A DNA stretch of 60,297 bases from an uncultured Methanobrevibacter sp. (lineage in GTDB: Archaea; Methanobacteriota; Methanobacteria; Methanobacteriales; Methanobacteriaceae). The DNA lies in assembly GCA_902777885.1 (NCBI GenBank), contig CACYVR010000001.1, forward strand, positions 1-60,297, given 5' to 3'. The position numbers were made by a program, and so were the translations under genes. Numbering within the stretch: the stretch's first letter is position 1; each line of letters opens with the position of its first letter. Below the pieces are notes generated by a model that did not search any database, was not told where the DNA came from, and worked only from the letters and a program-made list of their open reading frames with translations. This document shows, in pieces, positions 25,645 through 25,704 of the stretch.

Positions 25645-25704
25645 GCCAGATTAGTTTAATGTAAAACAATTATTATACAGGTTCAAATCCTGTATCTGGA
25701 ACCA
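25645..25704 (+). tRNA. tRNA-like gene lacking the anticodon arm
   Basis: A 60-base element with acceptor GCCAGAT/ATCTGGA (G1-A72 mismatch), D-arm GTTT-AATGTA-AAAC, T-arm ACAGG-TTCAAAT-CCTGT, discriminator A and an encoded CCA. Only nine bases (AATTATTAT) lie where the 17-base anticodon arm should be. It cannot decode; it may be a charged or CCA-ended mimic, or a deletion product. Confidence 0.7.

Follow-up and report, generated by a model that had tools for sequence, protein, structure and literature searches.

A tRNA-like element nested in the anticodon loop of a phage tRNA-Glu gene represents a recurrent class of probable tRNA-like introns

The window, by which we mean the whole 60,297-nucleotide stretch of DNA analysed here, is a phage contig that constitutes the entire contig C1 of a 1.77-Mb, 75% complete MAG, and it carries tail, topoisomerase II and NAD-ligase genes. 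ARAGORN called 18 tRNAs between 20.4 and 26.9 kb, and a Ro60-like gene (DUF2828/DUF7788; 28003-29463) lies after this tRNA cluster. Several oddities accompany the tRNA genes. A sequence at 23121-23195 that is probably a tRNA-Cys(GCA) and has a short D arm was missed by both ARAGORN and Rfam, and a 56-nt repeat, TTGGAAAGCAAAT...GCTGACCTTAAAGCTA, occurs in two copies with 79% identity (24288-24343 and 25179-25234), which are positioned directly upstream of tRNA-Gly and tRNA-Thr. A non-standard T loop of the form AGCRTWR (AGCGTTA, AGCATAG, AGCATAA), as compared with the usual TTCRANN, was seen at 22192-22280 and 22482-22554 of the window, at 78-149 and 1110-1184 of locus L002, and in several phages.

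The element examined here is the 60-nt sequence at 25645-25704 (plus strand), which reads GCCAGAT TA GTTTAATGTAAAAC AATTATTAT ACAGG TTCAAAT CCTGT ATCTGGA ACCA. Its acceptor stem has six of seven pairs, with a mismatch at G1-A72, and is followed by ACCA, the CCA thus being encoded at the 3′ end; the 4-bp D stem is complete, and the T arm (ACAGG TTCAAAT CCTGT) is kept with all five pairs. A spacer of nine bases takes the place of the anticodon arm, which is not the anatomy of a functional decoding tRNA. Rfam identified positions 25645-25701 as tRNA with 38.3 bits (gathering threshold 29; E 1.5e-4 for the whole window), and the MFE fold is composed of the acceptor, D and T helices (z = −2.2). An architecture scan scored the element at 28, whereas no score in three shuffled sets (approximately 1.4 Mb) exceeded 27, and it was also a structural match to the nested arrangement described below. 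ARAGORN made no call of it. An earlier note on this DNA had described the same anatomy, namely an acceptor, D arm, T arm and encoded CCA, with nine bases for the anticodon arm and the G1-A72 mismatch, and the sequence, the Rfam match and the MFE fold all bear it out.

The element is enclosed by the two halves of another tRNA, tRNA-Glu(UUC), which spans 25608-25740 on the plus strand. The 5′ exon (25608-25644) starts GTCCCCA TC GACA... and comprises the acceptor strand GTCCCCA, the D arm, the 5′ anticodon stem TCGCC, and loop bases C32, U33, U34, U35 and C36. The 3′ exon (25705-25740) supplies loop bases A37 and A38, the 3′ anticodon stem GGCGG, a T arm with a bulged A, and the acceptor strand AGGAGTT. 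The arrangement between the stems TCGCC and GGCGG is therefore CTTTC|insert|AA, and excision of exactly 60 nt, from G1 through the CCA, leaves CTTTCAA, a normal loop of exactly seven bases with U33, a purine at 37 and the anticodon UUC. The joined halves matched the uninterrupted tRNA-Glu of the relative Ro60-phage L017 (465-536) with 86% identity over 73 nt (E 7e-18) in an alignment that crosses the junction, and matched L219 with 83% over 66 nt. An intact second copy of tRNA-Glu(UUC), called by ARAGORN and Rfam, adjoins at 25752-25825 (plus strand); the spliced outer tRNA is identical to it at 52 of 74 aligned bases, and 25705-25740 is 81% identical to its 3′ part. Because the joined halves match an uninterrupted tRNA-Glu, 25645-25704 is an insertion between bases 36 and 37. 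This nesting gives a different meaning to the nine bases and the encoded CCA. Lodged in the anticodon loop of a tRNA-Glu, the element is one of a recurrent class of inserts and is not a free-standing gene for the decoy or primer that had been suggested. A simple deletion, the other explanation offered earlier, fails to account for its exact position at 36/37 of a second tRNA or for the 33 parallel cases presented below.

The acceptor stem of the outer tRNA-Glu, GTCCCCA/AGGAGTT, has only four of seven pairs, leaving three non-pairs, and ARAGORN did not call the in-silico spliced outer tRNA-Glu of the window. An alternative outer 5′ acceptor strand, GGTTCCT (at about 25579), could pair with AGGAGTT at all seven positions, which would require about 29 nt of additional inserted sequence ahead of the D arm. 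Given the damaged acceptor stem, the nested copy in the window may be decayed, and perhaps it is no longer the source of a working tRNA-Glu. One possible hypothesis, then, is that the insertion is dead, at least in the window: a tRNA copy would have landed in tRNA-Glu, killed it, and later lost its own anticodon arm, so that both parts are now unspliced relics. The three outer acceptor mismatches, an insert that has the G1-A72 mismatch and no anticodon arm, and the presence of an intact tRNA-Glu(UUC) just downstream are all in keeping with this hypothesis, to which we assign somewhat less than an even chance. That estimate overlaps with our preferred explanation, because the class may be live even if its copy in the window is dead.

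Besides the window, 33 further distinct nested cases were found, all of them in phage contigs. The first five came to light when loci that had been fetched solely for their Ro60-like gene were searched for tRNAs in which the anticodon loop is long. They consist of a complete tRNA-Asn within a tRNA-Lys (L075; CTTTT|AA), a tRNA-Phe within a tRNA-Arg (L069; CTT|CTAA), and, in the tRNA-Ile genes of L060, L006 and L067, reduced tRNA-like inserts that measure 44, 49 and 64 nt, respectively. For the rest, IMG/VR was scanned with two patterns that looked for a pair of T arms spaced as in a nested tRNA, with a CCA lying between them, and the matches were passed through a structural filter. The scans required the inner and outer T loops and the CCA but left the 5′ side of the insert unconstrained; because the CCA was required, inserts lacking it would escape the count of 33. 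Each insert is a tRNA or reduced tRNA of 44-119 nt, and every one ends in NCCA, as the searches demanded. The insertion site is 34/35 in 23 of the 33 cases, 35/36 in three and 36/37 in seven, and the outer anticodons are UAU (12), UUU (8), UCU (4), UGU (4), UAA (2), and UCC, UAG and UAC (one each). A nested-looking locus whose boundaries could not be fixed (L003, 6296-6417) was left out. One narrow pattern scan of 84,980 species genomes (cellular) gave four matches, none of them nested, and a second, likewise narrow pattern had a single match, by chance, in 151 genomes of the host phylum.

No exact DNA copy of 25645-25704 was present elsewhere in viral contigs; the same architecture does occur in nested inserts of relatives, being common to those of L115, L160, L214, L218 and L067. 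In annotated phage records, matches were to other parts of the queries, mainly neighbouring ordinary tRNAs, and for two nested loci these records contained no equivalent.

The outer tRNAs of the relatives differ from that of the window in their state of preservation. In the 33 cases the outer acceptor is paired at all positions or all but one, and 21 of the 33 outer tRNAs have uninterrupted homologues that span the junction. After in-silico splicing, ARAGORN called the outer sequence a full tRNA at six further nested loci, distributed over five relatives (Lys, Arg, Ile three times, and Asn). When the nested loci were left unspliced, it reported the inner tRNA, a misfit or nothing, and the outer tRNA was missed. 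Dead genes would be expected to lose such features, and the intact outer tRNAs of the relatives, with acceptors paired 7/7 in nearly all, exact 7-nt residual loops and valid anticodons, therefore argue against a dead insertion, as does the finding that the reduced inserts retain precisely the acceptor, T arm and CCA.

The boundaries of the inserts were examined with a test that was not part of the search criteria. The input was the outer tRNA together with a CCA located 1-5 nt before the 3′ anticodon stem, and the start of the insert was predicted as the site that leaves seven loop nucleotides. In 32 of the 34 loops, the first 7 nt from the predicted start pair at all seven positions with the 7 nt preceding the N-CCA, whereas starts shifted by 1-6 bases gave a mean of about three pairs and never reached 7/7. 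The two failures belong to a second type of insert, the Y hairpin. The inserts do not simply repeat one sequence: 27 different acceptor strands are found among them, the full T stem is present in 30 of 34, and where inserts share an Ile site, their base changes come in pairs (CATGAAG/CTTCATG, GATGAAG/CTTCATC and CACGAAG/CTTCGTG). The outer anticodon has U34 in all 34 cases, as compared with 45% of 1697 tRNAs in the same loci; the excess has p ~1e-10 with similar cases collapsed, a procedure that removes relatedness only partly.

The inserts also form a size series. Full-length tRNA inserts are 71-81 nt. Seven inserts, including that of the window, lack the anticodon arm and measure 58-68 nt; those of L115, L160, L214 and L218 follow the plan of 25645-25704, with acceptor, D arm, 7-9 nt, T arm, acceptor and NCCA. 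Seven more are minihelices of 44-49 nt that have little beyond the acceptor, T arm and NCCA. Three parts, the acceptor, the T arm and the CCA, are thus kept across the whole size range. The acceptor and T arm together make up the minimal substrate of bacterial RNase P, which also contacts the CCA. Anticodon-armless tRNA-like genes exist in free-standing form as well, with 14-15 nt replacing the arm and without nesting, at L031 683-748, L076 7985-8051 and L082 9728-9792.

Our interpretation of these results is that 25645-25704 is probably a tRNA-like intron, that is, a reduced tRNA inserted in a phage tRNA-Glu(UUC) at position 36/37, and that the class is likely removed by tRNA end-trimming and then ligated, the cutting enzymes and the ligation being those that we infer as follows. 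The enzymes that ordinarily trim tRNA ends would act on the inner tRNA fold of the insert. Cleavage by RNase P at base 1 of the insert would leave a 3′-OH on the 5′ tRNA half, and cleavage by an endonuclease directly after the insert's CCA would give the 3′ half a 5′-phosphate. Sealing of the two halves by an ATP-dependent RNA ligase, which in the window may be the phage Rnl1, would then yield a tRNA whose loop has the normal seven nucleotides. The residual loop has seven nucleotides only if the 3′ cut falls after the CCA, and the 3′-OH and 5′-phosphate ends expected from these two cuts are those joined by Rnl1/Rnl2 ligases. Cleavage directly after an encoded CCA has been described for the Thermotoga RNase Z and some archaeal RNase Z enzymes, whereas CCA inhibits many bacterial RNase Z enzymes (PMC7479834). 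Because of this inhibition, the 3′ cut would call for an unusual or a phage enzyme.

Alternatively, the insert might be released and the outer tRNA joined by way of a phage nuclease dedicated to recognizing the nested fold, instead of RNase P and an endonuclease acting after the CCA. The exact boundaries in 32 of 34 loops would fit such an enzyme, and U34 in every one of the outer tRNAs, well above its background, may point to a specific one. We think that this is unlikely, given that the features retained in the inserts are the minimal RNase P substrate plus the CCA.

The window encodes a candidate for the sealing step. A T4 Rnl1-type ATP-dependent RNA ligase, the candidate sealing enzyme, is encoded at 44341-45507 (Pfam PF09511, E 9.8e-13; phrog_562, E 3.4e-42), together with an RlaP-like RNA-repair nucleotidyltransferase at 43575-44411 (Pfam PF10127, 21.9 bits, just below the cut-off of 23; phrog_388 nucleotidyltransferase, E 5.7e-16) and a polynucleotide kinase-like protein at 46446-46943 (Pfam AAA_33, E 5e-19; phrog_505 polynucleotide kinase, E 2.3e-23), all on the plus strand. 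Of the larger nested-tRNA contigs, roughly half had an RNA ligase profile match above the cut-off and the rest had none, these contigs being incomplete. One of these matches, in L060, was rejected because it is a DNA ligase, and RtcB was rejected as the shared ligase, since it is present in one of 16 records and would need another end chemistry. RNA-repair genes and TROVE proteins were already known in jumbo phages (PMC7824862). The gene set of the window resembles the T4 Pnkp/Rnl1 system, which joins tRNA halves broken in the anticodon loop; the T4 system repairs damage by host nucleases, whereas here the break would come from removal of an encoded insert.

The proximity of the Ro60-like gene raises another scenario, in which the processed 60-nt RNA is a functional small tRNA mimic, acting as a decoy, a primer or a Ro60/Y-RNA module, and the outer tRNA is a mere carrier. 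In its favour, the distance to the Ro60-like gene downstream is 2.3 kb, these phages commonly contain Y-RNA-like elements that have tRNA-like modules, and L031 and L076 have free-standing anticodon-armless genes. Bacterial Y RNAs (YrlA) likewise combine a tRNA-like fold that lacks a normal anticodon arm with a nearby gene for a Ro60-like protein. However, YrlA has an enclosing Ro60-type stem, which is absent here, and the ends of 25645-25704 form a tRNA acceptor with CCA. The earlier suggestion of a Y-RNA module holds, therefore, as regards the surroundings, with a Ro60-like gene and Y-RNA-like elements nearby, some of which contain tRNA-like modules, and fails at the element itself, which has neither a flanking Ro60-type stem nor ACAGCAA; among the many ACAGCAA stem elements present, none encloses it, and this candidate was rejected. 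The nested inserts, moreover, share a fold and yet have 27 different acceptor strands, and a mimic leaves the exact 7-nt residual loops unexplained. We consider this scenario improbable.

The Y-RNA-like elements themselves, each with a closing stem of 6-10 bp followed by YACAGCAA, are situated at 23930-24023, 24110-24238, 26570-26642 and 26676-26751 of the window and in many other loci. A closing stem was found at 223 of 450 ACAGCAA sites in Ro60-phage loci, a share above that of control 7-mers not overlapping the motif, and the elements had no match to the Rfam Y-RNA families. Many of them enclose a permuted tRNA in the order T arm, 3′ acceptor, loop, 5′ acceptor and D arm (for example, L013 2316 and L029 864), and others have a tRNA-like module in direct order (L002 688 and L006 2697). 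At 23796-23922 of the window is a tRNA whose 61-nt anticodon loop holds a stem-loop and then ATACAGCAAT; a closed hairpin followed by ACAGCAA is also present in tRNA anticodon loops of L072, L074, L080, L087, L053, L082 and L085. These look like tRNAs onto which a Ro60-type Y hairpin has been grafted.

Two long inserts bear on the origin of the class. A 586-nt insert in a tRNA-Lys of L108 keeps the acceptor, D arm, T arm and CCA, and has a gene for a 174-aa HNH endonuclease (phrog_15471, E 4.9e-31) at the position of the anticodon arm. A 669-nt insert in a tRNA-Asn of L067 has similar ends and a broken reading frame. From these inserts, the anticodon-armless form, including that of the window, could be a remnant left after loss of the endonuclease gene. 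One could further envision a new class of mobile introns, tRNA-like and spread by homing endonucleases aimed at anticodon loops, which would be rendered harmless through excision by host tRNA end processing and resealing by an RNA ligase; for this extended proposal we see the chances for and against as evenly balanced. Anticodon-loop insertions of about 470-790 nt, mostly with one ORF of a similar type (...KGLLTELQC...) and with little space for a group I ribozyme, were also observed at L003 8136, L005 2885, L015 7022, L030 7885, L060 15436, L065 17765 and 19998, and in L243.

Group I-like introns with a core motif of the GACATAGTCC type are found in phage tRNA anticodon loops at L005 2211, L017 1848, L029 6965, L036 1721, L065 14734 and L067 12673. 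Their occurrence in the same phages would favour a self-splicing intron or other ribozyme at the nested sites, but inserts of 44-119 nt are much too short, and Rfam reports only tRNA at 25645-25701, which makes this explanation extremely improbable. Group I introns of bacterial tRNA genes do resemble the nested inserts in interrupting the anticodon loop, in carrying a homing endonuclease gene in some cases, and in restoring the tRNA when removed. They are, however, self-splicing ribozymes of hundreds of nucleotides, whereas the nested inserts are tRNA folds, mostly of 44-119 nt, with a CCA and no ribozyme core. A 2014 review placed every phage intron known at that time in a protein gene and none in a tRNA gene, despite the many phage tRNA genes (PMC3984707).

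Other known systems show likeness in part. Archaeal and eukaryotic nuclear tRNA introns are short, lie near the anticodon, and are removed by cutting and ligation. They are recognized by a splicing endonuclease (through a bulge-helix-bulge or a mature-domain rule) and usually reside at 37/38, whereas the nested inserts have their own end-processing signals and reside at 34/35 to 36/37, with the junction at 36/37 in the window. Circularly permuted and split tRNA genes also hold tRNA information in broken order that is restored at the RNA level, but here a whole tRNA is inside another and neither is permuted. We found no description of tRNAs nested in anticodon loops in the open-access literature, preprints and most subscription journals being outside the scope of the search. 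The nested tRNA-like inserts fit none of the intron types compared, and they look like a previously undescribed one.

If our interpretation is correct, this type of intron would stand apart from ribozymes, from spliceosomal introns and from introns that a splicing endonuclease excises, and would instead borrow the universal trimming of tRNA 5′ and 3′ ends. Bacterial viruses would thus encode a form of tRNA splicing, two tRNAs could be obtained from one transcript, and phage RNA ligases would have a constructive job beyond repair. The outer tRNAs of such nested genes escape a standard tRNA finder.
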